From Spartobacteria bacterium (GTDB taxonomy: Bacteria > Verrucomicrobiota > Verrucomicrobiia > Chthoniobacterales > UBA10450): a stretch of DNA of 64,000 bases. The position numbers were made by a program, and so were the translations under genes. A model generated the notes under the pieces. The model saw only the letters and a list, made by a program, of their open reading frames with translations. It was not told where the DNA came from and ran no database searches. The number at the start of each line of letters is the position of its first letter. The first letter of the stretch is position 1. Below, piece by piece: positions 23,282-64,000 of the stretch. The DNA lies in contig PNAA01000054.1 in assembly GCA_003169975.1 (NCBI GenBank), forward strand, positions 1-64,000, in the 5' to 3' direction.

Positions 23282-23339
23282 TTACCATTTCCCGTCAAAA
23301 CTTTACGCCCGCCCGCAGCGCGGCTAACCTCCTCGCCAC

Positions 23340-25055
23340 GTGAAGAAGGTTCCGAAGGTAGCGGTTATCGGCTTGGACTCTGCGACATGGACCGTCATTC
23401 GGCCGTGGATGGCGGAAGGCAGCATGCCGAATTTGGCGAAGCTCATGAAAGCCGGCGTATCGGGCACGCTCGAGTCAGTCTTGCCGCCGATCACTCCGCC
23501 GGCCTGGACGTCGTTCATGACCGGCAAGAATCCCGGGAAACACGGCATCTTCCATTTCGTCGAAACCGAGCATGGCGGCTACGCGATGAATTACGCGAAC
23601 GCGACCTCACGTCGTTCGCCCACCGTCTGGAAACTCTTGAACAACGCGGGGTATTCGGTTGGCACGATGAATATCCCGTTCACCTATCCGCCGGAGCCGT
23701 TGAACGGATTCCAGATTTCGGGGATGGACACGCCCTCGGAGAACAGTCCGTTCGTCCATCCGCCCTCGCTGCGGGAGGAGTTGACTAAACATTTGGGTGC
23801 AATCCAGCTCGATCTCCGCTTCCTCGGCGCAATGTCGACCGACGAACGGCGTAACCAGGTGCTCGCTGAGATGGAGCAACTGGACAAGCAATGGACGAAA
23901 ACCGCTCTCTACCTCCTGGAGAACCATCCGCAGGACGTGATGATGTTTGTTTTCATGTCGATCGACACCGTCCAGCACTATTTCTGGCAGTACATGGATA
24001 AGGATCATTTCCTTCACGATCCAAAGCTGGCGCCGAAATTTGGCCGCGCGATCCGCCAGGTCTACGAGCGACTAGATGCAGCGGCCGGCCAGATCATCGA
24101 TCGGCTACCGCCCGAGACCACAGTCTTTGTCGTCTCCGATCACGGTGGCGGGCCGGTGGTGGATCGCACCATTTTTCTCAACCGCTACCTCGCCCAGCTC
24201 GGTCTCCTGCATTACCACGAAAAAGCGAGCGCCGGCATTCGCAGCCTCGGCAAGAAGGTGCTGCGCTTCGGTTTCTCCATGGTCCGGAGCACGCTCTCCT
24301 CGCGCCAAAAGAGCCGCCTGGCTCTGCTTTTTCCGAAGCTCCTGCAGAAAACCGAAATGGCTTACTCGGCGTTTACGAGCATCGATTGGAGTCGGACCAA
24401 AGCCTACTGCAGTGAAGTGCTCGCCTCGCCTCCGAGCATCTGGATCAACCTCAAAGGGGTCAAACCACAGGGCACCGTCGAGCCGGCGGAATACGACGCG
24501 CTGGTCAACCTGATCATCGCGAAACTGGCCGAGCTAAAGGACCCGCGCACCGGTCGACCCGTCATCAATCACGTCTATCGTCGCGATGAGATCTTCCACG
24601 GACCCTTTGCCAATGAAGGCGCAGACCTTGTGCTCGATTGGTGGAGCGAGAACAGCCTTTTTTCAACTCAGCCAAGCTTCCCGGAAGATACCGATAAACC
24701 AGCTCTCATTATTCGGGAACACAAACCCTCTGAGACTTCCGAATGGGGAGGCACGCATCGCCTTAACGGCATTCTCGTGGCCCGCGCCCCGGCCTTTAAT
24801 AACGGGGCTGAAATCGAGACTCCTCACCTCATCGATATCGCTCCGACCATCCTTCACCTCCTGGGAGTTCCCGTGCCAGAAGATATGGACGGCAGCGTCC
24901 TCGTTGACGCTTTCCGCCCCGAGTTTCTCGCCGAGCGTCCTGTTACCGCCGGCGCTGCCTCTGGCACGTCAGGGGATGACCGCCCCAGCGGTTACACCGA
25001 CGAAGAGTCGGCCAAAGTCGAAGATCGGTTACAAGCCCTCGGCTATCTCGAATAA
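23340..25055 (+). CDS. Alkaline-phosphatase-superfamily phosphodiesterase/phosphotransferase (copy 2)
   Basis: 571 residues from a GTG start at 23340, just after the 57-base gap behind hddA. Motifs: VAVIGLDSATWTVIRPWM (metal Asp), nucleophile region PPITPPAWTSFMTGKNPGKHG with the usual Thr, VFVVSDHGGGPVVDR (metal pair), and a late His in WGGTHRLNGILVA. The C-terminal blocks PHLIDIAPTILHLLGVPVP and EDMDGSVL match copy 1. It is longer than copy 1 by an insert around residues 280-350. There is no signal peptide. Same-operon location with hddA and glycosyltransferases suggests action on phosphorylated glycan or lipid intermediates. The natural substrate cannot be deduced. Confidence 0.87.
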   Translation: MKKVPKVAVIGLDSATWTVIRPWMAEGSMPNLAKLMKAGVSGTLESVLPPITPPAWTSFMTGKNPGKHGIFHFVETEHGGYAMNYANATSRRSPTVWKLLNNAGYSVGTMNIPFTYPPEPLNGFQISGMDTPSENSPFVHPPSLREELTKHLGAIQLDLRFLGAMSTDERRNQVLAEMEQLDKQWTKTALYLLENHPQDVMMFVFMSIDTVQHYFWQYMDKDHFLHDPKLAPKFGRAIRQVYERLDAAAGQIIDRLPPETTVFVVSDHGGGPVVDRTIFLNRYLAQLGLLHYHEKASAGIRSLGKKVLRFGFSMVRSTLSSRQKSRLALLFPKLLQKTEMAYSAFTSIDWSRTKAYCSEVLASPPSIWINLKGVKPQGTVEPAEYDALVNLIIAKLAELKDPRTGRPVINHVYRRDEIFHGPFANEGADLVLDWWSENSLFSTQPSFPEDTDKPALIIREHKPSETSEWGGTHRLNGILVARAPAFNNGAEIETPHLIDIAPTILHLLGVPVPEDMDGSVLVDAFRPEFLAERPVTAGAASGTSGDDRPSGYTDEESAKVEDRLQALGYLE

Positions 25056-35700: not shown

Positions 35701-36001
35701 TTACAGCTCAAAGGTGCCGTACGACCCAACTCTCAGTGAACCGAAATTCGCTGACAAGTTTGGCGAATTGCCGGTGGTCCGCGATGTGACTGAGTTGAAG
35801 GAAGTCGTTCACCGCTCCGGGCGGGCCTGGATCGTTTTCGCCCCCTATGCGACGTTCGAAAAGTTCAACAGCCCCGCTGCGTTGGACTTTATTCACGAAT
35901 ATTCCAAGATTGAGTTTGAGAGCTACCGCGTGAAAGTCCTGCTGATTGAAGGCGCCCAACCCGGCTCGACCGTGGCCCGGACGATTCAAACCGCCGAGTA
36001 A
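32750..36001 (+). CDS. GT39-type membrane glycosyltransferase with two N-terminal beta-sandwich domains
   Basis: 1083 residues from ATG 32750. After one membrane anchor (WVLVVACGLLLGYYVL) come two similar extracytoplasmic domains of about 170-200 residues each. Both have the galactose-binding/rhamnosidase-N-type pattern: YFRKEVYL, WIQIAASDNFGLIVNGHTVG, GTNVIAVSI and LSDQSWRVSN in the first; WIQVASSGDLDLSVNGH, GQNVIVAAVRSE and ASNSAWRVGDR in the second. From about residue 410 a polytopic GT39/PMT-like domain follows, with the acidic catalytic loop MSFDHDEMGLVAKSKG and YSEWSMRLPACIMG. It probably transfers a polyprenyl-phosphate sugar in the periplasm, with the beta-sandwiches binding the acceptor glycan. 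Its 3' end overlaps the convergent sulfotransferase by 16 bases. Confidence 0.85.
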   Translation: MEQSSSHSLRWPWVLVVACGLLLGYYVLQTYDTPLHRQYQLDFGKAQWIEPAESFAPIAYFRKEVYLNALPKQAWIQIAASDNFGLIVNGHTVGNLGSEKTYETGIYDFKRALKVGTNVIAVSISRTSYPGTAQLLLSGQITESGGNVSTILSDQSWRVSNRKGIVPGSEEWDSVHVEDEVWPRAHLSELNRKAPPLRWVDTDPRLLRLPVIGYWIMAENAARQAVFSTTIRADRSKQETWIQVASSGDLDLSVNGHIITASTEIPVGGKKLPHLATAEPTPREVNKAGGVINPTQSSSPQKGNPFQTETLAAYDISYWIEKGQNVIVAAVRSEHIPASFLANGYLVNKDNSISRFASNSAWRVGDRPGANSSAVQRTVQTGPDGVAPWGYLPQELARPLDRSGFATFFKSCLVVVLTLAAVIGLWLVVSAIVSSVRREPLTASLSRDALLHGPIAVGLLLLLLPNYDPRFPDGWSFQPQFVVGAFAVLLLVRLLYLAVDSRTPAATRSALAKANAGARWESLKSASRNVVTTKLRLPQLFEIPFRQLLPYLLLILIMFLGLGLRYHNLGDMSFDHDEMGLVAKSKGIYKLGFPYTAFASEVRWITTYEAVPYPLALSGLFFGYSEWSMRLPACIMGTLSIGVIALMGRRLFDWRTGLFTALIYACMPLNIRWAQNAFYLSQCQLMTLVTCWFFYEAIRIRPFHRKFLTAAAVAFCCSYLSWEGTGFLLPAFGMGLLVVRWGQWWWLKEFHLYRCLFFMGAVVVAQYCSRLLAGVPYLNVGSGISNLTGPSLFFLAPGYQPMFYVDKLLLSENHVFFTLMILVGLPFCWKHLGFRYVIVLLTTLFILHTNFLAALSPRYCYYYQPFVLMGGIAAAVMLYDKVLAVALRSGNSLVARFAAHATGVALLALLFVQSNESVLQEYELSSVPDTPEMMTRMNTYRYDYRGVAHYVTSHARPGDVIFPGIPHVFKFYAGFPGDYFLDTLYSSKVPYDPTLSEPKFADKFGELPVVRDVTELKEVVHRSGRAWIVFAPYATFEKFNSPAALDFIHEYSKIEFESYRVKVLLIEGAQPGSTVARTIQTAE

Positions 36002-36897
36002 GCGCGGTTGATCGCTTTCCGCGCCGCGGCCCGGAGTGAGAAAATCGTTGCTCCGAGCGAACCCTGGGAACGCGCCCGCGCCGCTTTCAGGTCTTGGGCA
36101 ATTCGGTTCACTTCCGGACGCTGCTTATCCACAGCTTCCTCAAACAACTCTGCGGCGTGTTGATAAAGAGCAACGTCGAAGGAGTTGCTTCCTTTGATCA
36201 AATCCAGGGTGGACTGAGGAAGGTCTCCTTGCTTCGGGCGGGAACGCGTCACGTTGAAACTGGAGTAGGACTTTAGCTCCCAGCCGAAGCGCAGCTTCAT
36301 TAAGGCGAGGCTTTCCTCAAAACGTTCCGATAGGCCAACGACACTGAAATGGTGACTCAGGTTATGCTTGGCATTTTCGAAGATCTCGGGGGTGCAAGGA
36401 GCATTATAATCTGCTCCCGCCACAATCTTGCATTGAACATTGTCTCTTCGGGAACGTTCCACAAACTGTTCGATGGTCCATTTCTCCCGGCGAAGTTTCC
36501 AGTAGAACGGGTGCAGCTTGTAGCTGCGCATAAAGTAGAACGCCGAAAGCACCCGCTCGACGGGGTCGCGCAGGACGGTGATGTAGGTAGCGGGCTGGGG
36601 CAGAACTTCATGCAGCCCAAACAACATATGTCCTTTGAACATGCGTGTCTGCCGCAAGCGGCGCGGCGGGAGCTTGCGCAAATGCGCCGCCGACCACTCG
36701 AAAAGCACGGGGTCCACAGAATACATTTCTGAAAGTCGATATTCCCACTCAATCAAGCGATTGAGCGTGGTCCCGGCCGTCTTTGGCAAGTGGAGAAAGA
36801 TGACCGCCTCACCGGCCCTGGCTGCGGGGACGGCAGAACCAGCCGCTGACTGACCAAATTCCCTGGCTTGCACCGAATCTGTTGGATGAGCGCTCAT
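35986..36897 (-). CDS. Sulfotransferase family protein (copy 1)
   Basis: 303 residues. The 5'-phosphosulfate-binding loop is FLHLPKTAGTTLNRLIEWEY (about 34-53) and the 3'-phosphate site is YITVLRDPVERVLSAFYFMR (about 104-123). Both are classic PAPS-binding motifs of the heparan-sulfate-2-O-sulfotransferase-like group. The motif FSVVGLSERFEESLALM is also typical. It would transfer sulfate from PAPS to a sugar hydroxyl, probably on the glycan made by this locus. It overlaps the upstream glycoside-hydrolase-like gene by four bases (ATGA). A diverged paralogue starts the same minus-strand operon at 39786. Confidence 0.9.
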   Translation of the reverse strand: MSAHPTDSVQAREFGQSAAGSAVPAARAGEAVIFLHLPKTAGTTLNRLIEWEYRLSEMYSVDPVLFEWSAAHLRKLPPRRLRQTRMFKGHMLFGLHEVLPQPATYITVLRDPVERVLSAFYFMRSYKLHPFYWKLRREKWTIEQFVERSRRDNVQCKIVAGADYNAPCTPEIFENAKHNLSHHFSVVGLSERFEESLALMKLRFGWELKSYSSFNVTRSRPKQGDLPQSTLDLIKGSNSFDVALYQHAAELFEEAVDKQRPEVNRIAQDLKAARARSQGSLGATIFSLRAAARKAINRAYSAV

Positions 36898-38003
36898 CGT
36901 TGCTGGCGGTACTTCCCTTCTGAGATCAGTTTCTTTTTGTAAGCATCATAGCCCAGACTTTTCGCTTCCTGCCAAATCCTGGAGACAGCGCCGGTTGTCT
37001 CAACGCTAAAGCCATCGCCGTGCCAAAGCTCCCAGTATTCACCGCCCGCGTGGACCACGTTGAGCGCCGCCATCTCGATCGAGCCCATTCTTTCGTTCTC
37101 GGGGGATAGGCCGGCCAGGCTTTGAAATCCGTGATGCGCTCGATCGCGATACTTCTGCACGAGATCGTACGACAACATACCAGTGTCCTCTTTGCGGCCG
37201 GTCAGTTGACAATTTTGAATGCTAAAGCGTTCTGAATATCTGCTCAGTCCAGCGTCGATAACGCGCTCGCAGAAGCTTGACGGCAGATCCAGAACCTTGG
37301 ATACGTGCAGAGAGATCTCCTGTTTGGGAAAAGCCGTGCCCCAAACGTCGATAAACTTCTTATAGGTCTCGAGTAGCCTGGCGTCGTACTCCCCCAGCGC
37401 CTGCCATCGTAAACGGTCTTGAGGGGTTTTGGGCAAATGCATTTCCGCACTCAAGGCATTAGCGCAAGTGAGGACGACGCTAACACAAAGAGGGTCGCCG
37501 GCATAATGTTCGCCGAGCTGCTGAATGACGCGTGAGAAATCACGCTGATAAACAGGATCCCACGGGATCGGGAGCTTAACCGTTTCGCCAAAATTAGGAC
37601 GATGCGGATTATTCACCTTGGTCTCGAATGGCCGCGCGCCATCGGCATACACAAACGATGGCGTATAAACTCCAGGTTTTAGACAGAGCTGGTACTTCAT
37701 ACCAATGCTGTGAAACACCGCCACTGTCTTGTCAATCGCGCTAAAGTCGGGCTTTCCCGGCTGCTTCTCGATTTGATCCCAAGGTATATGGAGACAAACT
37801 CCCGACAGGTTAGGATTGGCTCGCACCTGGGCAGAAAATTCAGCAAACGTCGCGGCATCCTTAGGGAGCTTCTGCGTGACCCAGAGCCCGGTCCGGAGCG
37901 CTGGCCCGCTAGCGGCGAGTAGCGGCGAGCGAAGTGTGAATAACGTGATAGCCGCTACGGCAAGCGAAATCTGAGGGGCGAACAATCTGTAACGCGGATG
38001 CAT
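36894..38003 (-). CDS. Secreted glycoside-hydrolase-like TIM-barrel protein
   Basis: 369 residues with a signal peptide (ISLAVAAITLFTLRSPLLAA). The body reads like a (beta/alpha)8 hydrolase: GLWVTQKLPKDAATFAEF, SGVCLHIPWDQIEKQPGKPDF (compare the W..E/Q.. strand of GH5/GH42-like barrels), VAVFHSIGMKYQLCLKPG, VVLTCANALSAEMHLPKTP where a catalytic acid would be expected, and ALNVVHAGGEYWELWHGD near the end with another candidate Glu. I cannot assign a GH family. Location between two sulfotransferase genes suggests trimming or turnover of the glycan in the periplasm. Its stop overlaps the sulfotransferase start. Confidence 0.6.
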   Translation of the reverse strand: MHPRYRLFAPQISLAVAAITLFTLRSPLLAASGPALRTGLWVTQKLPKDAATFAEFSAQVRANPNLSGVCLHIPWDQIEKQPGKPDFSAIDKTVAVFHSIGMKYQLCLKPGVYTPSFVYADGARPFETKVNNPHRPNFGETVKLPIPWDPVYQRDFSRVIQQLGEHYAGDPLCVSVVLTCANALSAEMHLPKTPQDRLRWQALGEYDARLLETYKKFIDVWGTAFPKQEISLHVSKVLDLPSSFCERVIDAGLSRYSERFSIQNCQLTGRKEDTGMLSYDLVQKYRDRAHHGFQSLAGLSPENERMGSIEMAALNVVHAGGEYWELWHGDGFSVETTGAVSRIWQEAKSLGYDAYKKKLISEGKYRQQR

Positions 38004-38020
38004 CGGCGATGACGCTACCT

Positions 38021-38968
38021 CTAGCGCGAGCCACTCGGCTTAAGGTGCTTGTCGAAGAAGGCCGTAATCTCCGAGGCATACTGAGGAGCTCCAACTCCGT
38101 GGCCCCGTTTTGGGATCTCCAATGTCGCGTCCACTCCAGCGGCTTTCAGTTTGTTGTAGAACTCTTCGGCTTGGCTCACCGGAATCGAGCTATCATTTTC
38201 TCCATGGATAATGAGGAACGCCGCGTCATCCTTGGAAACGTAGGTGACCGGGCTGGCTGCGATCGCTTTCGCTTTATTTTGCTCAACTGGGCCTCCCAGA
38301 AACTGCTCGATCGATGACTTGGCTCTGCGGCCCGAACCATCGTTCGAACTCGATACAGTCTCGTAGAATTGCAGGAGATCCGAGGGGGCGGACATATCAC
38401 AGACCGCCTGCACCCGGCTCGAATAGGTAGAGTTATCACCGGCGCCCTCCAGCTCCGCAACGCCACCTGAGGTGCCGAGGAGCGCAGCCAGATGTCCCCC
38501 AGCGGAGTGACCCCATGCCCCGATGTGATCGGGATCGAAATGATAAGTAGCAGCATTGGCCCGCAGCCAGCGGACGGCTGCTTTGCAATCTTCGATGGCC
38601 GCTGGAAATGGCGCCTCTCCCGAGAGCCGATAGTCTATGCTGACAACGATATAACCATGCGCCATAAGATTGAAAGGCGGTCGCTGTTCTTTGCTGCCGC
38701 GGCTCCAACGGTGCCCGTGCATCCAGAGAACGACCGGCAAGGGATGAGTGATCGACTTGGGCGAATAAATGTCGAGTTGGAGATCGCGGCCGTTGACATG
38801 TTTGTAAGTCACGTCGCGCACAATATTGACATCTGGAAAATCCGCCCGTCGGCGTCGCCGCTCCGCTGACTCGGCCACCTGCGTCCCCCAGGTCGCGACA
38901 GCGATGACCAGGAGCAACGAGGCAAGCAGCCGGCGATGAGATACAATCTGAACCTTATGAGTTTTCAT
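38021..38968 (-). CDS. Secreted alpha/beta-hydrolase (esterase/lipase, HSL-like)
   Basis: 315 residues with an N-terminal signal segment (LLASLLLVIAVATWGTQVAESA). The oxyanion motif is a variant HGHRW in PVVLWMHGHRWSRGS, the nucleophile elbow is HIGAWGHSAGGHLAALL (Ser about 158), the acid is in FLIIHGENDSSIPVSQAE and the catalytic His is in PKRGHGVGAP. This resembles bacterial hormone-sensitive-lipase-type and acetyl-xylan-type esterases. In this operon it may deacylate the glycan, opposite to the acyltransferase at 25084. Its start overlaps the stop of the upstream sulfotransferase (ATGA), so it belongs to the same operon. Confidence 0.88.
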   Translation of the reverse strand: MKTHKVQIVSHRRLLASLLLVIAVATWGTQVAESAERRRRRADFPDVNIVRDVTYKHVNGRDLQLDIYSPKSITHPLPVVLWMHGHRWSRGSKEQRPPFNLMAHGYIVVSIDYRLSGEAPFPAAIEDCKAAVRWLRANAATYHFDPDHIGAWGHSAGGHLAALLGTSGGVAELEGAGDNSTYSSRVQAVCDMSAPSDLLQFYETVSSSNDGSGRRAKSSIEQFLGGPVEQNKAKAIAASPVTYVSKDDAAFLIIHGENDSSIPVSQAEEFYNKLKAAGVDATLEIPKRGHGVGAPQYASEITAFFDKHLKPSGSR

Positions 38969-39786
38969 ACTGCTGATGCGATCTTGTTTACCAAAAAGCG
39001 ACCGGCTCCCAAAGTCGAGTTACAAAAGCCCTCAACCGAGCCCGGCTTCGACAGCTTGCGCAAAGCAACCAATCCTTCTCGGACCGCTGCTTCGTTCTTT
39101 TGCAGGCTTTCTTCGAAGAGACCTTTCCCAAATTCGTAAAGCTCAAGGTCGAGCCGATTGTGGTCGCGAATCATTTTCACCGCGCCGGGATCAATCTGCG
39201 GTCTCGTTTTTGCAACCCTGCAATTCTCATAGAAAGGGATCTCCCAAGCAAAGGTCGTGGCCAGGAGCATAAGACTCTCCTCGAAGCGCTCCGAGATCCC
39301 AACGACGCTAAACGATTTAGTAAGATTTTCTTTCGCGATCGCTAGTAATCGCTCATCGTTAATCGCGGTATCTTCAACTCCGGCAATAAACCTGCACTGC
39401 AAGTTTTGGCGATCAGGGAACAGTCGGAGGCAATCTTCTACTCCCAGTCGCTCCCTTTTCAATTTCCAGTGCAGCGGATTAAGCGGCCGGCGCAGAACAA
39501 AATAGTAAGCGGAGAGAACCCTGGCCACCGGTTCGCGCAGTAACGTGATATAGGTAGCGCCTTGCGGCAGGAATTCATGAATACCATAGGGCAAATGTCC
39601 GCGCACCACCCGCAACCGGCGACGGCGCCCCTCCGGAAGTCGTTTGAGTCGTTCCGAGGTCGCCTTGACCAGATAGGGATTGATCGTGAAAATCGCAAAA
39701 GGACTGTATTGGCACTCGATAATCCGGTTCAGGGTCGTCCCCGCTGTTTTGGGAATGTGAAGAAAAATTAGCGCCTCGCGATCCAT
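38965..39786 (-). CDS. Sulfotransferase family protein (copy 2)
   Basis: 273 residues, first gene of the minus-strand operon. PAPS-binding motifs: IFLHIPKTAGTTLNRIIECQ (residues 7-26) and YITLLREPVARVLSAYYFVL (3'-phosphate site; Glu in place of the usual Asp). SFSVVGISERFEESLMLL aligns with copy 1. The C-termini of both also align (LYEFGKGLFEESLQKNEAAV against LYQHAAELFEEAVDKQRPEV). Two copies suggest sulfation at two positions or of two sugars. Neither has a signal peptide or membrane anchor, so sulfation would be cytosolic, before flipping. A kinase/sulfurylase pair to make PAPS is not in this window. Confidence 0.88.
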   Translation of the reverse strand: MDREALIFLHIPKTAGTTLNRIIECQYSPFAIFTINPYLVKATSERLKRLPEGRRRRLRVVRGHLPYGIHEFLPQGATYITLLREPVARVLSAYYFVLRRPLNPLHWKLKRERLGVEDCLRLFPDRQNLQCRFIAGVEDTAINDERLLAIAKENLTKSFSVVGISERFEESLMLLATTFAWEIPFYENCRVAKTRPQIDPGAVKMIRDHNRLDLELYEFGKGLFEESLQKNEAAVREGLVALRKLSKPGSVEGFCNSTLGAGRFLVNKIASAV

Positions 39787-48478: not shown

Positions 48479-49636
48479 ATGGCGCTACCTGATTTGGCTT
48501 TGGGTCCGGAATGGGCTCTTCTGGAATTGCTGGTCATTGGACTGGATGATCCAAACGCCGAAACGCTTTTCGTGAAACTGATTCAGTCGGACGAACTGCA
48601 TTGGGGTGAAACTCTTCATCAGGCCCTGCGCCATGGCATGCTCGCTCAACTGGCGTTTATTCTGACGTCGGACAAGTATCAGAAGACGATCCCGACCGAG
48701 ATACTCCACCACCTGCACCAGGTCTTGAGTTTGAACCGGCATCGCACTTCCATTTTGCGCGGCGAAGCTGCGCGGATTGCGCGAACACTGCGCGATAGAA
48801 ATATCCAGTTCGTCGGCACGAAGGGAATCACGCAGGAGTCCACTTTGTATGGCGGGAACGGCAGCCGGTACATGCTCGACGTCGACTTCATGATCATGCC
48901 GAAGGACCGCGAAGTGGTGACAGAGGTCATGGGCGGGCTTGGCTATGAAGCCGCGAGTTATGATCTGCGCACGGACCGCGTCAACGCACCTACCCGAAAG
49001 GAGATCATCCTCCATCAATTGAATCCCGATCATCTTTTCCTGTTTGCGACGCGCACGGATGATCCCATCGTGCACCACGTGATGGTAGATGTCGCCAACA
49101 GACTGACCTGGACGAACTGTCCCTTCGATGTGCCGCTGGAGTACGCATTCAAGGACATCGTCTATCAATCGATACCGGGCTACCCGGACGTTGAACTTCC
49201 AAGTTTTGGTCCGCTGATCCAGTTTCTCTTCACCATTCTTCACCTGTTTCGCGAAGCATGGCTGGAGAGATGGATGTCGGTTGGCAAGGACGTGAATCTC
49301 AGCAAGTTCGCGGACGTCATTCGCCTGTGGCGCGTCCACGGTGAAAGTATGCGTCGCGCCGGGCTCACGAATCGTCTAGAGGAATTGGGGCTGATCGAGC
49401 CGGTGGTGTGGGTTCTGGAGCACCTGGATCGAACATTCGGCACCAGCATCGTGCGCGAGATCAACCTCCAGGGCAGAGTAACCGAAGAATATTTGACCAG
49501 CGCGCGCGCGTCGGGAGGAAGGCTGCGCCAGTGGAAGGGCACGATGCGTGAGCGGCTGCAGTGCAAAGACCGGTACAAACTTTTTGCCGATGCGCCCGAC
49601 CAAGGTGGTGGTGATGAGTTGCACGCAGTACGTTGA
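48479..49636 (+). CDS. Nucleotidyltransferase-fold protein (NTP_transf_5 type, copy 2)
   Basis: 385 residues from ATG 48479 (MALPDLALGPEWALLELLV). It aligns along its length with copy 1: FVGTKGITQESTLYGGNGSR, metal pair YMLDVDFMIMPKDREVV, DVANRLTWTNCPFDVPLE and FLFTILHLFREAWLERW. The shared C-terminal motif GTMRERLQCKDR is near the end. Similarity is clear but moderate, so this is an old duplication. Its last 23 bases overlap the start of a truncated PEP-utilizing enzyme, indicating that nucleotidyltransferase and PEP enzyme once formed a coupled pair. Reaction unknown. Confidence 0.85.
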   Translation: MALPDLALGPEWALLELLVIGLDDPNAETLFVKLIQSDELHWGETLHQALRHGMLAQLAFILTSDKYQKTIPTEILHHLHQVLSLNRHRTSILRGEAARIARTLRDRNIQFVGTKGITQESTLYGGNGSRYMLDVDFMIMPKDREVVTEVMGGLGYEAASYDLRTDRVNAPTRKEIILHQLNPDHLFLFATRTDDPIVHHVMVDVANRLTWTNCPFDVPLEYAFKDIVYQSIPGYPDVELPSFGPLIQFLFTILHLFREAWLERWMSVGKDVNLSKFADVIRLWRVHGESMRRAGLTNRLEELGLIEPVVWVLEHLDRTFGTSIVREINLQGRVTEEYLTSARASGGRLRQWKGTMRERLQCKDRYKLFADAPDQGGGDELHAVR

Positions 49637-49905
49637 GGTGCTGGGCGCCGGTCCTGCCGATCTGGGACTGCTTGGTGGGAATGGAGCATCTCTCTGCCGC
49701 CTGGTAAGTCTGGCTCATCGTGTTCCGCCCGGTTTTGTCATCGCGCGCGAGGCTTTTCAATGTGCCATCCAAGACATGGGTCTCTCTTCGGCACTCGACA
49801 CGCTCGACTCACTGCTCGCCGGTACCCAAGACATGACCGCGTCTGCCGAACAAATTCGTCAGAGCAGTCTCTCGCGCCGGGTTCCCTCGCGAATCCTCGC
49901 GCTAC
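49614..49905 (+). pseudogene. Truncated N-terminus of an ATP-grasp/PEP-utilizing enzyme
   Basis: From ATG 49614 the frame encodes MSCTQYVEVLGAG, LGLLGGNGASLCRLVSLAHR, VPPGFVIAREAFQCAIQD and LDTLDSLLAGTQDMTASAEQ. It aligns almost residue for residue with the first 95 residues of the intact protein at 56263. Homology stops at SRRVPSRILA near 49905, where the sequence switches to an inverted fragment of a nucleotidyltransferase gene. The ATP-binding core and His domain are missing, so this copy is dead. The start overlaps nucleotidyltransferase copy 2, which suggests the original operon order. Confidence 0.85.
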
Positions 49906-56262: not shown

Positions 56263-59200
56263 ATGGCAACATCTCTTAGTCAGACGCAGTACATTGAGGT
56301 GCTCGGCGCAGGCGCAACCGATCCGGGCTTGCTGGGCGGCAAAGGAGCTTCTCTCTGCCGCCTCGTGAATCTTGGACATCGCGTTCCACCCGGCTTTGTC
56401 ATCACGCGCGACGCTTTTCAAAGCGCCCTCGAAGACATCGGGCTTGCTTCCTCGCTCGACACGCTTGACTCGCTGCTCGCCGGTTCCAAAGACACGACTG
56501 CAACTGCCGAACAAATAAGTCAGAGCATCATTTCCCGCCGGATTCCCTCGCGAATACTCAAGCCGATCATGCAAACGGTCGACGCCTTAAGGCTCTGGGA
56601 GCAGCCTTGCGAAGGCGTGATCGTTCGGTCTTCTGCCACGATTGAGGATGGCAGCGCTCATTCCTTCGCCGGCATTTTTGAATCGATACCGATCAGCACT
56701 CCGGAGGAATTTGAACCGACGGTTCGGAAGATTTGGGCATCCGTTTTCTCGCCGCGCGCCCTCACGTACTTCCGGGAGATTGGGGTTCAGCAGGTACCGG
56801 CGATGGCGGTCGTCGTCCAACGTTTCCTGCGCGCCGAGCGCTCGGGAGTCATGTTCACGCGCTTTGCCGGGCCTGATGGAAGGCAGTGCATTCTCGTCGA
56901 GCACGTCGAGGGAGATTGCGAAAAGCTGGTGAAGGGTGAAGTGACGCCCGAGAGGCTTTGGCTGAACGAGGCAGAAGATGTCCCGGAATTGCTCGAAGGA
57001 CCACTTCGACCCGGACACGTCCGTACCTTGGCTCAGGTCGCCAAACGGCTGGAGGAAAGTTTCGGGGCGCCGCAAGACGTCGAGTGGGTCATCCACGACG
57101 ATGCGCTACACATCGTCCAATCCAGACCGATCACTGCTGCATTCTCCGGCGACGCGAGTGCCGGGCCGGCATCGTCCTTCACCACAACCGCCATCCTCAC
57201 CGGAGTGCCTGCCAGCTCCGGCACAGGATCGGGCGCCGTCCACCTCGTGTTCAACATTGAACAAGCGCTTCAGCTTCAGTCCGGATCGGTGCTCGTAACG
57301 CCGATGACAAATCCCGACATGGTGGTCGCGATGCGAAACTCGGCGGCCATCGTTACGGACGTCGGCGGGATTATTTGTCACGCCGCGATCGTGTCGCGCG
57401 AACTCGGTCTACCTTGCGTCGTCGGAACCGAAACGGCGACGACGACGCTTGTGAACGGAGAGCCCATCACCGTGAATGGATCAACTGGTTGCATCTATCG
57501 AGGCCGCATCGAAACGGAACGTGTGGCGAAGTCATTGGGGCAGGTACAGTGGTCGGACATCTGGTCCGCATGGACGGAGGCCACAAAGGAGAGACCCGAC
57601 CTCGTGCCTATCGTCTCTACAGCGGAGGCATTGAAAGAGATGCCTTCCGGTATCACGAGCGTTGTCCTCGTGCCCGACCTTGACCTGAGAACAAACATGC
57701 ACGGCCTGTGGAACGACCTCGAAGCGCGGCCAGCCGATGCTCGCAAGGCCGCACTCGACAACTACATCACGGTGGTTGCCGGGATCGTTTCGGAACGAGC
57801 GAACTCGAAGTTGTACGTATTGCCGTTAGGCAGCTTGCCTCGTCACGAACTCGGCGAGGCTATCGCGCGAATAGCGAACCCGGCCGTCGCACTTTACGAC
57901 AATGACCGCGCCACTTTTCCGTTGGTATTCAATCCGGGAGTAGCCTGGCCGGACGGATCCGCCGCTGTTCCGCTCGGCTACGCGAGCGACATACGCACCG
58001 GCGCAACAACAACGCGACAAAAAATCGGCGGAATGGACGAGGCGGAATCCGCGGCACTCGACACGATCAAATTCTTCGGCCACAAACCCGGAACCAAGAT
58101 CACGACCATGCCCGCACCCCAGTCCCGGGCGACGTGGTGGGCGGTGCTTCCCGAGTACGCGCGCTTCCACCAGGAATTTGCAACGGTGGCGACGACGGGG
58201 GACTTCGAGTGGCTGGAAGTGCGTCCCGAGCTTGTCCTCTCTGCTCTTTTGAAGTCTCTGGTTCAGCCCGGCTTCGAGATGGTCCCGCGTGTTCTCGGGT
58301 TTCGAAACGTTCCACCGCTCCACATCAAGTGGGTGAAATGCCGCTACCACTTTCGCTCCGACACTTTTGCTCTGGTGTGGCAGTCCATTGTCCGCGCGAC
58401 ATGGAACGAAGCGTTCATGGCTGATTTGATGCGACAGGTCCGTGCTTCCTACGATCGGCTGGCTGAAGTTCTCATCCTATTTCCCACAACTGACGCGGAG
58501 TTGAACGCCACCTCCGGAGATCAGATGGTCGCATTGATCACGTCCTGGTGGCCTCGCTGGGTAAAGTTTTTCGCGCTCTGCTGGTTTATTCAGGCCCAGG
58601 GAGATGACATTCTGTTCCCTTTCATCGACGAGACGGTGAATCACAATCTGAGTTATGTCGGCTCGCCTCCCGCCGATCGGGTGTGGCCCGGTCCCGCTGA
58701 TTTCATCGCGCCGACTACTCCCGTTCTGAGCGGCGCCTACATGGCCGACGTCGCGAGACTGCGCGAAGCGCTGCTCGCGACCGGGCTTCGCACGAGAGAA
58801 GAGGCCGAGTCCGCTCTGGATGCCGGACAACATCTCACCATTGCGCAGAACCTGGCCGAGCACCTCCGGAAATGGCACTGGATGCGCGACCGCGACCTGC
58901 TCTTCGAACCGTGGGATACACGCGGCCGTGTAATCGAGACGGCGCTCAAAACCGATCCGCATACGGTTATGCCTTACGAACTCAATCTGCAGCGCAATAT
59001 CCTCGCGCTGAGCTTCCATTTCGATTTAAGCCACAGCAGCGGCCGCGCGCTTGGGCTGAATCACGCAGCACGTTTCCTCCACGACCTGAATGTCGAAAGG
59101 GAGAATCACCACGTCCTCTGGCTTAAGTATTCGTATCCGCTGCGACAGCTTGCGGTCGAGATCGAGCGGCGCTTGATCGCATGCGGCAGCCTCGATAAGG

Positions 59201-59376
59201 GCGACGTCTTCTTCCTGCAAGCTCCGGAGCTCATTGAAGCGGCGAGGAACCTCCCGGCTCCGTTGACACCGGATCTCGTGTCGAAGGTGAAAAACCGGCG
59301 GAGAGGCTACCTCATCGAAGCCCGGCTTGTCGGCTTGGATGCAGAGCCGGCGCTACCTGAGGATGATTACTACTGA
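56263..59376 (+). CDS. ATP-grasp / PEP-utilizing enzyme (PEP-synthase or rifampin-phosphotransferase-like)
   Basis: 1037 residues from ATG 56263 (MATSLSQTQYIEVLGAG); the frame is open from 56197. Residues 1-300 are the ATP-grasp domain of PEP synthase type (LLGGKGASLCRLVNLGHRVP, VIVRSSATIEDGSAHSFAGI, VMFTRFAGPDGRQCILVE and EWVIHDDALHIVQSRPI). Residues about 315-415 are the swivelling phospho-His domain (LVTPMTNPDMVVAMRN, DVGGIICHAAIVSRELGLPC with His about 373). The long C-terminal part (about 430-1037) is mostly helical and ends with the PEP-utilizing linker pattern (RENHHVLWLKYSYPLR, LDKGDVFFLQAPELIEA). A PEP-binding barrel is not seen. The order ATP-His-helical differs from rifampin phosphotransferase (ATP-substrate-His). 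It likely transfers the ATP beta-phosphate to an unknown acceptor. Confidence 0.85.
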   Translation: MATSLSQTQYIEVLGAGATDPGLLGGKGASLCRLVNLGHRVPPGFVITRDAFQSALEDIGLASSLDTLDSLLAGSKDTTATAEQISQSIISRRIPSRILKPIMQTVDALRLWEQPCEGVIVRSSATIEDGSAHSFAGIFESIPISTPEEFEPTVRKIWASVFSPRALTYFREIGVQQVPAMAVVVQRFLRAERSGVMFTRFAGPDGRQCILVEHVEGDCEKLVKGEVTPERLWLNEAEDVPELLEGPLRPGHVRTLAQVAKRLEESFGAPQDVEWVIHDDALHIVQSRPITAAFSGDASAGPASSFTTTAILTGVPASSGTGSGAVHLVFNIEQALQLQSGSVLVTPMTNPDMVVAMRNSAAIVTDVGGIICHAAIVSRELGLPCVVGTETATTTLVNGEPITVNGSTGCIYRGRIETERVAKSLGQVQWSDIWSAWTEATKERPDLVPIVSTAEALKEMPSGITSVVLVPDLDLRTNMHGLWNDLEARPADARKAALDNYITVVAGIVSERANSKLYVLPLGSLPRHELGEAIARIANPAVALYDNDRATFPLVFNPGVAWPDGSAAVPLGYASDIRTGATTTRQKIGGMDEAESAALDTIKFFGHKPGTKITTMPAPQSRATWWAVLPEYARFHQEFATVATTGDFEWLEVRPELVLSALLKSLVQPGFEMVPRVLGFRNVPPLHIKWVKCRYHFRSDTFALVWQSIVRATWNEAFMADLMRQVRASYDRLAEVLILFPTTDAELNATSGDQMVALITSWWPRWVKFFALCWFIQAQGDDILFPFIDETVNHNLSYVGSPPADRVWPGPADFIAPTTPVLSGAYMADVARLREALLATGLRTREEAESALDAGQHLTIAQNLAEHLRKWHWMRDRDLLFEPWDTRGRVIETALKTDPHTVMPYELNLQRNILALSFHFDLSHSSGRALGLNHAARFLHDLNVERENHHVLWLKYSYPLRQLAVEIERRLIACGSLDKGDVFFLQAPELIEAARNLPAPLTPDLVSKVKNRRRGYLIEARLVGLDAEPALPEDDYY

Positions 59377-59990
59377 TGCCATCACAATCCAAGTTCCTGG
59401 TTATTGAAGGTTGTAACGGCGTCGGCAAAAGTACGATCGCGGAATACCTGTGCGCCCGCGCCGGCGCTTCAACGTTTCACTACCCGCCCGAGTTCGTGAG
59501 CTTTCGCCGCGACGTGCATCTGGATGAGCTGGCGCCGCTTCCCCGGCTTGTCTACTATCTGGCGGCAACATTGCATCTGTCGGACCTCGTGCGCGCTCAA
59601 CTCACACAGAGTCATGTCGTCTGCGATCGTTATCTGGCAAGTCCCCTTTCGCTGATGATCGGCGACTCGGCGATTGAAGAGACGGAGGCTCGCCAACTGA
59701 CGGAACCGTTTGGATCGTACCTGTGCATGCCCGATCTGATTCTCCTGCTGACTGCGGAGCACGCCGCGGCCAGTGCAAGGATTTGCAACCGTTCGCTCAA
59801 GTCAGGCACACTCACGCCGGTCGCGCGAAGAATGCTCGAATCGGAAGAGTTTTTTCAGAAGAGGGAAAATGCTTTTCGCCAGTTGGCGATGAGACTGGGC
59901 CCCGTCGTGGAACTGGATACGACGAACCTCTCGCCCGAAGAGATGTGCAACTCCGCGTGGTCGCTGTTAGCGCCCAAACTTAACTGGTAG
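59376..59990 (+). CDS. Thymidylate-kinase-like P-loop kinase
   Basis: 204 residues. Walker A is LVIEGCNGVGKSTIAEYL (residues 8-25), the DR motif is SHVVCDRYLASPLSLM (about 82-97) and a helical LID region surrounds SARICNRSLKSGTLTPVARR. This is the TMP-kinase branch of P-loop kinases, but the thymidine-binding details are not conserved enough for a tmk call, and tmk is usually not found in such a locus. Start ATG 59376 shares a base with the TGA of the PEP enzyme (TGATG), so translation is coupled. It probably phosphorylates a small molecule in the same pathway. Confidence 0.8.
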   Translation: MPSQSKFLVIEGCNGVGKSTIAEYLCARAGASTFHYPPEFVSFRRDVHLDELAPLPRLVYYLAATLHLSDLVRAQLTQSHVVCDRYLASPLSLMIGDSAIEETEARQLTEPFGSYLCMPDLILLLTAEHAAASARICNRSLKSGTLTPVARRMLESEEFFQKRENAFRQLAMRLGPVVELDTTNLSPEEMCNSAWSLLAPKLNW

Positions 59991-60027: not shown

Positions 60028-60885
60028 CTAGCGCGACCGGGAAAAGAACCAGGGCCGCGCAGAGGGATCACTTTCGAAAAACTCAAACAGCTTAGTTCCG
60101 ACTTTCAACGCGCCCTGCGCGGAGGGGTGGACGCCGTCCGACTCAAAGTCGCTGCATTCCCAGAGAAGGCCGTCGCTGCGAGGCCTCAAGCCATCGGCCC
60201 ATAGGTAAGGACCCCATGAAACCCAGGGTACCGACCTGTCGGGACTCGGATTGTTGATGCGCTCCTCGATCAACCACTTGACCGCGAATGCGGATTCGTA
60301 CGCGATGGGTTCCGGACTCAAGTCCGATTCCGAATACCCGCCATAGGTCCGGCTGGAGACGTATACAAGTTTCAGCTGCGGAAACTTCGTAATGAGAATT
60401 CCCACGATCGAGCGCAACGTCCGCTGCAGAAGTCGCGCATTTTCCGGAAAACGGCGAGGCTCACGGGCGAGGGCAGTCTTGAGCCATACGACCTGAACCT
60501 GTGCAGTGGATACCTCGCAGCGTTGAAGCTGGCGGTCCACGTTTATCCAATAGTCGCCGAATGGGACGGCAATCTGCGTTGCGGCCGCTCCATCCCGAGC
60601 AACATCGATCATCGATAGGCTGGGGTTTGTGCGCGCGTCAGCGTTAACCAACCGGATGAACTGCGAAAACTCGCGAGACGCGTTGGACATGCCGATGGAG
60701 ATCATGACGATTTTTCCAGAAATCGACGGTTTGCCTTCTCTGTCCACCGGTTGCACTGCCGCGCCCAGCGCCACTCCGGCCTCCTCGTAAGCGGAGGGGG
60801 ATGAGTTTTTTCCATTCGGATAGAGACCGCCCGCAAAGCCGAGATATTGGGCTGATCCAAGATCGGTGAGAGGAGTACCGATCAA
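60028..60885 (-). CDS. SGNH/GDSL-like hydrolase
   Basis: 285 residues. Block I is ISGKIVMISIGMSNASREFS (candidate nucleophile Ser in SIGMSN, about 67), and block V is ESDGVHPSAQGALKVGTKL (Asp-x-x-His, about residue 250). The N-terminal LGFAGGLYPNGKNSSP and the YWINVDRQLQRCEVSTAQVQ and SSRTYGGYSESDLSPEPIAY segments occur in a large group of usually secreted bacterial hydrolases. Here the gene starts at 60885 without a signal peptide and overlaps the upstream gene by four bases, so it would act in the cytosol unless the start is mis-set. Last gene of the minus-strand operon; it may remove an acyl group. Confidence 0.72.
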   Translation of the reverse strand: MIGTPLTDLGSAQYLGFAGGLYPNGKNSSPSAYEEAGVALGAAVQPVDREGKPSISGKIVMISIGMSNASREFSQFIRLVNADARTNPSLSMIDVARDGAAATQIAVPFGDYWINVDRQLQRCEVSTAQVQVVWLKTALAREPRRFPENARLLQRTLRSIVGILITKFPQLKLVYVSSRTYGGYSESDLSPEPIAYESAFAVKWLIEERINNPSPDRSVPWVSWGPYLWADGLRPRSDGLLWECSDFESDGVHPSAQGALKVGTKLFEFFESDPSARPWFFSRSR

Positions 60886-61229
60886 TCGATATGCCTCTCG
60901 ATCACCTTGCCGGTGTAACCGTCCACCTCCAACAAATCACCGTCTTGAAAGAGACTGCGGGCGTCTCGAATGCCCACCGCCGCAGGTATGCCGAACTCGC
61001 GAGCGAGCGTGGTTGCGTGCTGAAGAATCGCGCCTTCCTCGACGACGAGTCCGGCGACCCGCGGGAGCAACGGCGCAAGATGTGGATGGAGGATGCGGAC
61101 AACAAGAATAGAACCTGCCGGAACGGCCATAATGTCTTCGGCATTGCGTATAACGTACGCCTTCCCGCTGGCGCGTCCCGGCGAAGCGCCCAAGCCCGAG
61201 TAGACTGTCGTTGAGGTTTCCGCGCTCAT
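60882..61229 (-). CDS. Stand-alone PEP-utilizing swivelling phospho-histidine domain
   Basis: 115 residues from ATG 61229, which overlaps the stop of the upstream gene (ATGA). The whole protein is one PEP-utilizers 'mobile' domain: YSGLGASPGRASGKAYVI, AGSILVVRILHPHLAPLL, then GLVVEEGAILQHATTLARE with the phospho-carrier histidine (about residue 71), GIPAAVGIRDA and LLEVDGYTGKVIE. In known PEP synthases and rifampin phosphotransferases this domain is fused to ATP-grasp and substrate domains; here it is a separate protein. The separately encoded helical domain just upstream (61226-62356) is its likely partner. An ATP-grasp partner would have to be supplied in trans. Confidence 0.85.
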   Translation of the reverse strand: MSAETSTTVYSGLGASPGRASGKAYVIRNAEDIMAVPAGSILVVRILHPHLAPLLPRVAGLVVEEGAILQHATTLAREFGIPAAVGIRDARSLFQDGDLLEVDGYTGKVIERHID

Positions 61230-62356
61230 GAACTCCCCAGTATCGTCGCAAGCCGGCTCGAATCGACGCCGTGCACTGACAAGTACTCGGTGTTTTCCAT
61301 GTAACGATGACGGCGCGTGTGAATCACCGCTGGATCGGCGATTCCCGCAGCCAATTCGCGAATGTCGAGGAATAACAGATCCGCCAATTGGAACGCGGGG
61401 ATTTTCTGGCGATATCCCGCCGCCAGTTGCTGCAGGAGCGGGATCATGCCGAGATAAAACGCGCGGCGCACATACCAGGTCTCCCGTTCCATAAAATCCA
61501 GCCAAAACCCAAGGACACGCCTGAGGACAGCGATTTTCGCTGGCACATCGATAGTGGACCGAGCGACTGCGGGTCTTTTGGCGAAAGACAAACGCCGGCG
61601 CACTTGTTCTGCATCGACCTCACTGAAGGCCGAGTGGAGCAACCGGACGACATAATTCGGATCTTCATACCCGGGAGCGTCCCATGCCAGCGGACCGAAA
61701 CCTGTTTGACGATTGCAGAACTCGCTAACGAGCTGAAAGACTTCCGCCGGCACGCCGGGCCATTCGCGTTGCAGTCGTTGCGGGGTGTAGTTGAGAACGC
61801 AGCAAGCCTCATACAACGCGAACGTATTTCGCATGAGTTCGGCGCCGGCACTCGTCTCGGGAAAAGGCGGCGGCTCAACATCTCCCGCATCCGCGAGAGC
61901 TCGCAAGAGAACATCCGGAACAAATTTGCTCAAGATTCCATAGGCCAACACAAGGGCCATTCTATTCGCGAGATCTTCGGACAATTTCCTGGCCGCGCCG
62001 TCAAGCGAAGTGGCTGCACGCGCGGCATTCTCGCTCGCATCAACCAAGGCATCGCAGGCGGCGGCGTGCGTCGTGTGCATGAATTCGAGAGTTTCCGGCG
62101 TGAACCACGAGCGTAAGGCTTTAGTCAGCACGGCGACCTGCGATCGATCCAAAAAGAGGTCGCCGTTTTCATCCAGCCGCGCTGGAAAATCCGGCTCGGA
62201 CGTTAGACCGGGCAAACCAATCGTCGTCGCGGCCCGGGCTACCTGACGGAAGAGCGAGCGCTGCAACGGCAAGCCGACGATATGCCGGCGATATGGCTGC
62301 GCGGATCTTGCGGCCGCCTGCGCCATGTTGCCGACTTGCTTGACTTCATCAAGCAT
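61226..62356 (-). CDS. Helical PEP-utilizing-enzyme-like domain protein
   Basis: 376 residues, almost all helical. The last third matches the linker that precedes the swivelling domain in PEP-utilizing enzymes: GFWLDFMERETWYVRRAFYL, GMIPLLQQLAAGYRQK and ADLLFLDIRELAAGI, then ADPAVIHTRRHRYMENTEY. Compare RENHHVLWLKYSYPLR and GDVFFLQAPELIEA in the protein at 56263. No ATP-grasp core and no phospho-histidine are present. Gene order (this protein, then the His domain) reproduces the domain order of rifampin-phosphotransferase-like enzymes, so it reads as a fission of one such enzyme lacking the ATP domain. It overlaps both neighbours. Confidence 0.65.
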   Translation of the reverse strand: MLDEVKQVGNMAQAAARSAQPYRRHIVGLPLQRSLFRQVARAATTIGLPGLTSEPDFPARLDENGDLFLDRSQVAVLTKALRSWFTPETLEFMHTTHAAACDALVDASENAARAATSLDGAARKLSEDLANRMALVLAYGILSKFVPDVLLRALADAGDVEPPPFPETSAGAELMRNTFALYEACCVLNYTPQRLQREWPGVPAEVFQLVSEFCNRQTGFGPLAWDAPGYEDPNYVVRLLHSAFSEVDAEQVRRRLSFAKRPAVARSTIDVPAKIAVLRRVLGFWLDFMERETWYVRRAFYLGMIPLLQQLAAGYRQKIPAFQLADLLFLDIRELAAGIADPAVIHTRRHRYMENTEYLSVHGVDSSRLATILGSS

Positions 62357-62813
62357 CGCCGAGTTCTTTCGCGGTCAGCCGCGGGAAAGCGCCACGGAGG
62401 GCGGCGCGTCGCCCTTCCGGTCCCAGGGCTGACATTCCAAGGCGCTCCGCGTCCTGCGGGTCATAAGCAACGAGATGAATGGAAATCGGCTCAATGACCG
62501 CTCCGGGAAATTTCAAGATCAGCGTCACGGTCTCCGCGCCGGCGGCAAGCATCTCGTCGGGAACGCCAAACTGGTAAACGCCAGGCAACAATTTGTTGTC
62601 GATTTCAACAAAGCTTCCGGCTCGATGCTCGCCCAGCTTCCCTTCGACCAGAGGTATCCGCCGCACTTGAGCTTCTCCTTCGCGAATGTAGGCGGCGCTG
62701 GAGTCCGGAGTCCGCGAGCTCAAACCCGTCTTGCCTGAACGCATGTCAGTCGCGTCGAGGGCATAGACGAGCAGTATCTTCGATGTGGTTCCTTTCTTCA
62801 GTGCGTAGGACAT
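62349..62813 (-). CDS. Small beta-rich protein resembling phage structural proteins (copy A)
   Basis: 154 residues. Order of segments: KKGTTSKILLVYALDATDMR, SGKTGLSSRT, SAAYIREGEAQ, FVEIDNKLLPGVYQFGVPDE, MLAAGAETVTLILKFPGAV and IHLVAYDPQDAERLG. The phrase SGKTGL, then YxREG, then FVEID..PG.Y.F.VPD, then LVAYD is one I associate with uncharacterised structural proteins of tailed phages. A charged C-terminal tail of about 35 residues is added. Its neighbour at 62820 is a paralogue. No capsid, portal or tail gene is present, so the domain seems to have been recruited; role unknown. It overlaps the helical-domain gene by eight bases. Confidence 0.6.
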   Translation of the reverse strand: MSYALKKGTTSKILLVYALDATDMRSGKTGLSSRTPDSSAAYIREGEAQVRRIPLVEGKLGEHRAGSFVEIDNKLLPGVYQFGVPDEMLAAGAETVTLILKFPGAVIEPISIHLVAYDPQDAERLGMSALGPEGRRAALRGAFPRLTAKELGDA

Positions 62814-62819
62814 AAATTT

Positions 62820-63344
62820 TTACGATTCTTTCTTCACCTTCATCCTTGCGGCTAGCTCCTTCTCGGCTTGCTCGCCCAACGCCAGTTCCATTTCCGTAAA
62901 CCGAGGTAATGCCTGCCGCAGGAATTCATGCCGCTTGTGACCGGCCAAGCTCCACACACCGATACGCTCCGAGTCTTGGGGGTCGTATGCGACGAGATTA
63001 ATTTCGACCGGCTTGATCACCGTCTCGGGAAAACGAATCAACAGAACAGCGCGCGCAGAACCTTCGGCAACCATTTCATCCGGCGCGCCGAATTGATACA
63101 ACCCAGGCAGCAACTCGGGATCGACTTCAGCCAAGGCGCCCGATCCCCATTCGCCGACACGACCTTGTCCGATCGGGACTCGGCGGGCCGCGGAGTCCCC
63201 CTCTCGAATGTAGGCCGCACTGGCGGCGGAAAGATTCTTGGCGAGCCCCGTCTTGCCGGACGCGCTCTCTGCCGACGTGGCATAAACAAGGAGCAGCTTG
63301 GACTTTGTTCCAGCTTTCATCGTGTAAGTGTGCTGTACCGGCAT
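62820..63344 (-). CDS. Small beta-rich protein resembling phage structural proteins (copy B)
   Basis: 174 residues from ATG 63344, which is supported by a perfect AGGAGG at 63356-63351 six bases upstream; the longer frame to 63395 is rejected. Segments parallel copy A: MKAGTKSKLLLVYATSAESA, SGKTGLAKN, SAAYIREGDSA, LAEVDPELLPGLYQFGAPDE, MVAEGSARAVLLIRFPETVI and INLVAYDPQDSERIGVWSLA. The C-terminal 45 residues are a charged helix (MELALGEQAEKELAARMK). The two copies probably form a heteromer. The strong ribosome site suggests high expression relative to the coupled neighbours. Function unknown. Confidence 0.65.
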   Translation of the reverse strand: MPVQHTYTMKAGTKSKLLLVYATSAESASGKTGLAKNLSAASAAYIREGDSAARRVPIGQGRVGEWGSGALAEVDPELLPGLYQFGAPDEMVAEGSARAVLLIRFPETVIKPVEINLVAYDPQDSERIGVWSLAGHKRHEFLRQALPRFTEMELALGEQAEKELAARMKVKKES

Positions 63345-63354
63345 GACGCTCCTC

Positions 63355-63618
63355 CTAAGAATGTAACTCCGAATGTTTGGTCTCGATAAACTCAATCAAC
63401 GCTCGTAGCGTTTGAAAATTTTCCGGCATGAGGTCGGTATCCTCGATCTTGATACCGAAGTGTGATTCGACGAAAACGATTAACGGCCACATGTTCAGCG
63501 AGTCAATGGGTCCGCCTTCGGAGTCGAGCAGGGGTTGGTCAAGTGTCGGCAATGGCTCCCCATTCTTCGCAAGGATTTCTTTGCTGAGATAGTCAGTCAA
63601 TACTTCAGGCACATTCAT
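63355..63618 (-). CDS. Acyl carrier protein, diverged
   Basis: 87 residues. ACP helices are recognisable: VPEVLTDYLSKEIL, the attachment loop EGGPIDSLNMWPLIVFVESH with serine (about residue 39), FGIKIEDTDLMPENFQTLRA and LIEFIETKH. It differs strongly from the other three ACPs of the window (IDSLNM instead of LDSMTA). Its start overlaps the stop of the flavoprotein (ATGA), and the copy B gene follows. It probably carries the substrate of the flavoprotein. Confidence 0.88.
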   Translation of the reverse strand: MNVPEVLTDYLSKEILAKNGEPLPTLDQPLLDSEGGPIDSLNMWPLIVFVESHFGIKIEDTDLMPENFQTLRALIEFIETKHSELHS

Positions 63619-64000
63619 GAGCCACTTCTCTTCTTTCGACCCTGCTCATTAATGGACCGCATCGCCAGAAGACCGGGTAAAGGAGTTTCTTTGTACACCC
63701 TGCCGGCGAACATATGGATGATGTCTTCCGGATATCGATGGTGCGCGAGCATGGAAAATGCATAGGGATGTTCCCAAAATGCATCGATAAGTTCCTGAAC
63801 GTTGTCCTGACCACGATCACAAAGTCGCTGGTAGTCCGCAAATGGATTCGGCTGCTCTCTCTTTGAGTCAGCGAAAAATGATGCGATAGAAGAGGCGGCA
63901 TACTCGGCTTCTTTCATCGCGAAAAAGACTCCAAACGAAAAGACCGGATCAATGAAACGATGGGAATCGCCCACGCAGAGAAACCCCTTTCCGGTGAAAT
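63615..64000 (-). CDS. FAD-dependent oxidoreductase, halogenase/geranylgeranyl-reductase type (partial, cut by right edge)
   Basis: Only the C-terminal 128 codons are inside the window. Near the edge the sequence gives FTGKGFLCVGDSHRFIDPVF followed by SFGVFFAMKEAEYAASSIAS. This is the second FAD-binding motif (GDxxxxxDPxxSxGv) of tryptophan-halogenase-like and geranylgeranyl-reductase-like flavoproteins. A helical tail follows (YRLCDRGQ-like residues, PYAFSMLAHHRYPEDIIHMF). The N-terminus, which would show the GGGPAGS motif and the halogenase WxWxIP signature, is outside. The ACP start overlaps its stop, so the substrate is probably ACP-bound. Confidence 0.82.
   Translation of the reverse strand, partial: FTGKGFLCVGDSHRFIDPVFSFGVFFAMKEAEYAASSIASFFADSKREQPNPFADYQRLCDRGQDNVQELIDAFWEHPYAFSMLAHHRYPEDIIHMFAGRVYKETPLPGLLAMRSINEQGRKKRSGS

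Follow-up and report, generated by a model that had tools for sequence, protein, structure and literature searches.

The window, by which we mean the entire 64,000-nucleotide stretch of DNA analysed in this study, covers the initial 64 kb of contig C2, which is 122.5 kb long, and the related genomes that carry these genes are MAGs from soil, named Chthoniobacterales or Verrucomicrobia. On the minus strand at its right end lie, in order of transcription, genes for an FAD-dependent halogenase-like protein, an acyl carrier protein (ACP), two small proteins (A and B), a 376-amino acid protein that we call Hel, a 115-amino acid swivel protein, and a putative SGNH/GDSL hydrolase. Hel (61226..62356) is listed here as a helical acceptor-binding-domain-like protein on the basis of motif spacing, a low-confidence AF2 model and conservation, whereas the swivel protein (60882..61229; coding positions 60885-61229 plus the stop codon) is assigned by a PF00391 match and carries its histidine at position 71. 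Both open reading frames are intact and, as the sequence-only reading of this DNA had placed them, overlap by the four bases ATGA at positions 61226-61229. The hydrolase gene (60028..60885, minus strand) lies directly downstream of the swivel gene and overlaps it by TTGA. Its product exhibits a very weak match to PF00657 (E=0.27), and its position is conserved in all five genomes that carry Hel (see below).

The gene for small protein B (62349..62813) overlaps the start of Hel, and its product is approximately 52% identical to small protein A (62820..63344); both are conserved in 5/5 genomes. These tandem paralogues (62349-63344, minus strand) stand ahead of the dikinase pair, and protein A is distantly similar to a hypothetical protein of the Caudoviricetes phage MW202621 (32% identity, 8e-10). 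These are the two phage-like proteins of the earlier description. Farther upstream are the genes for the ACP (63355..63618, minus strand; PF00550, 1.9e-4) and the halogenase-like protein, of which the C-terminal part, encoded by the last third of the gene, falls within the window (63615..63998, minus strand). The full gene extends to C2:64859, and its complete product matches PF04820 (4.6e-25). Each of these two genes is found with the unit in three of the five genomes.

Two plus-strand genes converge on this unit. The larger (56263..59376) encodes a protein, hereafter called 56263, with an ATP-grasp domain, a swivel domain and a further region (PPDK_N, 1.7e-51; PEP-utilizers, PF00391, 3.5e-24). 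Its end is overlapped by a gene for a dTMP-kinase-like P-loop kinase (59376..59990; PF02223, 2.9e-14; TIGR00041, 5.3e-16, below cut-off), which is kept with 56263 in 5/5 genomes. A truncated copy of approximately the first 95 residues of 56263 (74% identity, with GGKGAS changed to GGNGAS) is located at 49614-49898 on the plus strand, and appears to be the decayed remains of a second dikinase gene within this cluster. The surrounding genes encode A domains, an ACP, halogenase-like, sulfotransferase-like and phosphodiesterase-like proteins, and nucleotidyltransferases, and the neighbourhood looks biosynthetic. Paralogues of the phosphodiesterase/alkaline-phosphatase superfamily and of Gal-3-O-sulfotransferase-like proteins are repeated within the window and past its right edge (window 20829-24944 and 35986-39786; L007:9982-13373).

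Among 213 genomes of the order Chthoniobacterales, Hel is present in five (G000, G002, G005, G173 or AV36, and G179 or AV42), which represent five species in three genera of one family. The gene order small protein A, small protein B, Hel, swivel, hydrolase is the same in all five, with the order in G002 and G005 pieced together because Hel is spread over two contigs there. The 4-base overlap between the Hel and swivel genes is likewise retained in 5/5 species. For the three species with full-length genes, Hel proteins are 75-79% identical with dN/dS values of 0.29-0.35. The five swivel proteins are 78-86% identical with dN/dS values of 0.11-0.28. This conservation answers the concern that the histidine domain is a degenerate remnant. 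It could be argued that Hel and the swivel represent a single-chain gene broken by a frameshift or an assembly error, given that swivel domains that appear to stand alone elsewhere, such as in G386, sit in genes broken into several frames. However, the same split and the same 4-base overlap recur in five species from separate assemblies, and purifying selection is measured on both sides of the junction. The split is therefore not a frameshift artefact, to the extent that we consider a broken gene exceedingly improbable. A programmed frameshift joining the two proteins was also considered and set aside, since no conserved slippery sequence was seen by eye at the junction.

The operon neighbours named in the sequence-only reading (an ACP, a flavoprotein, an SGNH hydrolase with a weak match, and two small proteins) are all present in the window, but the ACP and halogenase-like genes are absent beside the unit in G002 and G005, and so were rejected as core partners. 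In those two genomes, a phosphodiesterase-like gene instead lies upstream of the two small proteins. Only the unit itself, 56263 and the kinase are constant across the five genomes. A repeat-rich autotransporter-like gene and two Kelch-like repeat genes (L019:2168-8568, named by eye) lie between the hydrolase gene and the kinase and 56263 genes of G005.

The domain identity of the swivel protein is well defined. It matches PF00391 with 68.1 bits (E=4.9e-19; cut-off 23.1), bearing out the earlier call of a 115-residue stand-alone domain with its histidine near residue 71, and it aligns over nearly its whole length to the solved PEP synthase 8a8e (1.5e-17). His71 is the catalytic-type histidine and is invariant in the five species. 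The motif T/SxxGGxxxH around the swivel histidine of dikinases (PMC12167813) is replaced by VVEEGAILQH in the swivel protein. Single-chain relatives likewise depart from this motif, reading I/V-E-R-G-S-x-L-S-H, and thus the loss of the T/S and of the second glycine is common to the swivel protein and its relatives. A tree of 25 sequences, with long branches and modest support, groups the five window-type swivels in a clade of their own, placed weakly beside single-chain ATP-grasp/helical/swivel enzymes (87/84). The swivel domain of 56263 groups apart from this clade, with swivels of the PEP-synthase type (91/88). The single-chain neighbours, from Verrucomicrobiota and Roseinatronobacter (L098-L105 and L064), have a histidine motif similar to that of the window swivel (V-E-x-G-[SA]-x-L-x-H), but they are chains of approximately 820-1000 amino acids in another gene neighbourhood, which in the cases inspected contains UbiA and AMP-ligase genes. 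In L099 and L104 (other Verrucomicrobiota) and L064 (a Roseinatronobacter plasmid), the RPH-like dikinase gene adjoins a gene for a UbiA-family prenyltransferase, with DUF3419 and AMP-ligase genes in some, and these neighbours together suggest an uncharacterised pathway.

Swivels encoded alone are rare. A survey of 241 genomes of the phylum gave approximately 150 swivel matches, and those in open frames of less than 250 amino acids were limited to the swivel of the window and one within a gene that is broken. Apparent stand-alone or short swivels on plasmids of Variovorax and M. branderi and in G386 proved to be genes broken into several frames.

Hel is harder to place. No match to its sequence was found in Pfam, NCBIfam, PHROGs or the PDB, and it was not matched by the models of the PRK08296 family. 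Relatives were likewise absent from plasmids, viral contigs and a GTDB r220 pattern scan, and a search of 388 genomes of the phylum yielded, beyond the five Chthoniobacterales MAGs, marginal matches only (best E 0.002). When the profile of Hel was compared with those of single-chain, HpeH-like and RPH sequences, no score was significant. The helical PEP-enzyme label proposed for Hel by the sequence-only reading thus rests on motif spacing and a low-confidence fold match. Hel carries an Arg-Glu pair (R291-E292) and the sequence DLLFLDIREL at residues 326-335, which conforms to a D-h-h-F-L-x3-E-L element of the family. In the rifampin phosphotransferase RPH-Lm, the corresponding residues are R666-E667 and H825, with a RIF-binding domain spanning residues 327-754 (PMC4844700). 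If the Hel and swivel chains are joined, 156 residues separate R291-E292 from the swivel histidine, compared with 159 in both RPH-Lm and a Streptomyces Rph. From DLLFLDIREL to the swivel histidine the distance is 120 residues, compared with approximately 124 in this Streptomyces Rph and 131-137 in most single-chain relatives. The two-part motif arises in approximately 1 of 10,000 shuffles of Hel, a figure that is partly circular because the motif was defined after Hel had been seen; the RPH spacing is that of the published work. Among 179 open frames of at least 200 amino acids, the motif is found in two, Hel and 56263.

An AF2 model of Hel built from seven closely related sequences is poor (pLDDT 49.8, pTM 0.52). 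When this model was compared by VIA-align with 733 chains, RPH-Lm occupied ranks 1-5 and 12 over RPH residues 324-741, although the Z of 6.4 is, for a helical protein, within the chance range by the tool's own note. Foldseek alone returned no match for the model below E 0.001. The motif spacing and this model both point to the RPH acceptor domain, and a fold resembling the RIF-binding domain is taken as likely for Hel. An ATP-grasp domain was found in neither Hel nor the swivel protein, as had been proposed, and PF02896, the PEP-binding TIM barrel of PEP synthase and PPDK, had no match in Hel, the swivel protein or 56263. A stand-alone barrel of this kind (PF02896, 3.7e-11), together with a second dTMP-kinase-like gene, is present near the 56263 homologue of AV36 (L021:18780-19781), the only one of eight genomes checked that has it.

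The sequence-only reading had also suggested 56263 as an ATP-grasp unit for the pair. Of the 213 genomes, the five with its C-terminal region are precisely the five with Hel, and in 5/5 its gene lies close to the unit in convergent orientation, albeit approximately 7 kb away in G005 and on two contigs in G179. This shared occurrence makes 56263 the best candidate partner. The protein comprises an ATP-grasp domain (residues 23-312), a swivel domain with H373 (motif TDVGGIICH), and a remainder of approximately 620 residues, at the end of which is a helical-domain-like region (residues ~700-1037) carrying R946-E947 and DVFFLQAPEL at 981. It keeps K27, R122, E274, Q286 and R288, which we take from knowledge of RPH and PPDK to be residues of the ATP-grasp site, just as we take H373 to be the histidine of its own swivel. 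In a single comparison, its C-terminal end gave a profile match to an HpeH-like protein (probability 57%, E 1e-4), which indicates the order ATP-grasp, swivel, helical region, unlike that of RPH. The AF2 model of the C-terminal 618 residues is unusable (pLDDT 38). Because 56263 has a swivel and a helical region of its own, it is not the bare ATP-grasp unit that had been envisaged, and it may not serve the Hel/swivel pair. Other PPDK_N matches in the five genomes are housekeeping-size genes similar to those for PPDK and PEP synthase, plus two short open frames of 402 amino acids (G173:C127, at a contig end) and 303 amino acids (G002:C205). The G002 and G173 assemblies are fragmented, and these frames could be pieces of such housekeeping-size genes.

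Dikinases with the ATP-grasp domain on a separate chain are established. HpeHI, CreHI and PpsAB, all of them two-component enzymes, have been characterised by experiment (PMC12167813), a separate ATP-grasp chain is also described in PMC7500099, and gene pairs of the HpeHI kind occur on plasmids of Rhizobium, Thermomicrobium and Natribaculum. Thus, the initial premises that known family members are single chains and that an ATP-grasp domain acting in trans would be new do not hold. These systems share with the window an RPH-type acceptor domain and swivel whose ATP-grasp domain is on a different polypeptide. However, HpeH joins acceptor and swivel in one chain, whereas in the window these are two chains, and HpeI lacks a swivel, whereas the candidate ATP-grasp chain 56263 has both its own swivel and a helical region. 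The pair shares with RPH-Lm an Arg-Glu pair approximately 159 residues before the catalytic histidine, the swivel as the last domain and, probably, the acceptor-domain fold. RPH-Lm is one chain with an ATP-grasp domain, whereas the pair lacks such a domain, and its cut separates the acceptor domain from the swivel. In support of the partial RPH-like domain order noted earlier, the pair resembles the acceptor-binding and swivel portion of an RPH-like dikinase divided between two conserved genes. Members of the PRK08296 family (NCBIfam 'hypothetical protein', 568-633 amino acids) also carry a swivel at the C-terminal end, but as one polypeptide.

We hypothesize that Hel and the swivel protein are the acceptor and the carrier of a small-molecule dikinase of the RPH/HpeH type that is loaded in trans, most likely by 56263, and we give this reading about an even chance of being correct. 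It builds on the observed split, its conservation, the selection on both genes, the domain identity of the swivel, the motif spacing in Hel and the strict co-occurrence with 56263. From these we infer complex formation, the direction of transfer, the ATP-grasp donor and the acceptor. Hel and the swivel would each be translated as a polypeptide of its own, probably with coupled translation, and an ATP-grasp domain acting in trans, most likely the one in 56263, would use ATP to phosphorylate His71. The phospho-swivel would then dock on Hel and hand its phosphoryl group on to a small molecule bound by Hel, with Arg291-Glu292 of Hel used as RPH uses Arg666-Glu667. The acceptor may be made by the biosynthetic genes nearby. 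A link to a pyrrole (PigA/PltA) pathway was considered, but the PigA-like dehydrogenase gene of G000 is on another contig and such genes are also present in genomes without the pair, so there is no specific link. AV42 encodes a PigA/RedW-like prolyl-carrier dehydrogenase near halogenase-like genes (L033:16325-17299; NF053553, 3e-104, below cut-off on a truncated stretch).

Readings other than a simple three-part relay also arise, since the swivel of 56263 is intact and the protein has a helical region of its own. The free swivel might be a shared carrier, such that the ATP-grasp domain of 56263 loads both its own and the free swivel and so feeds its own helical region as well as Hel. We regard this branched relay, with a free carrier akin to HPr in the PTS, as rather unlikely. 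Much the same domain content, with the intact TDVGGIICH motif and the placement of the two swivels in different parts of the tree, would also suit a scheme in which 56263 is a self-contained dikinase for another step of the same pathway while Hel and the swivel move phosphoryl groups between organic molecules, with no ATP-grasp partner. HpeH alone can indeed transfer phosphate from 4-phosphoacetophenone to acetovanillone, although it does so slowly relative to the reaction with ATP (PMC12167813). Strict co-occurrence of the pair with 56263 also suggests a common function, and we judge partner-free transfer to be rather unlikely.

Departures of the histidine motif from T/SxxGGxxxH (Val for T/S, Ala for the second Gly, and a Gln preceding the His) might instead indicate that the pair is a non-catalytic, regulatory or scaffolding remnant of a dikinase whose swivel no longer carries phosphate. 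However, His71 is the same in five species, as are most of the residues around it (EEGAILQHATTLARE), the low dN/dS values of the swivel point the same way, and replacement of the T/S and second Gly in single-chain relatives makes these changes less telling; loss of catalysis therefore appears distinctly unlikely. It is more doubtful still that loading of the swivel falls to a housekeeping protein (the ATP-grasp domain of PEP synthase or PPDK, or PTS enzyme I with PEP) and that 56263 is unrelated. G000 does encode proteins of the PEP synthase/PPDK type and PTS enzyme I, but these loaders are unlinked to the pair, whereas 56263 is linked to it in 5/5 genomes.

Given the two-component enzymes already known, the novelty of an ATP-grasp domain in trans falls away, and the arrangement in the window is one more cut than in those split enzymes. 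Separation of the acceptor domain from the swivel appears to be new, as no description of a conserved cut at this position was found in a partial literature search, nor was such a cut encountered elsewhere among the genomes that were searched. A swinging phospho-histidine domain is the means by which RPH-like dikinases modify antibiotics, aromatics and pathway intermediates. A swivel that is naturally a free protein would allow this mechanism to be studied as that of a diffusible carrier, and the split pair would reveal how far an RPH-like enzyme can be cut. Together, Hel, the swivel protein and 56263 would provide a ready three-part kit for exchanging substrates between acceptor modules.
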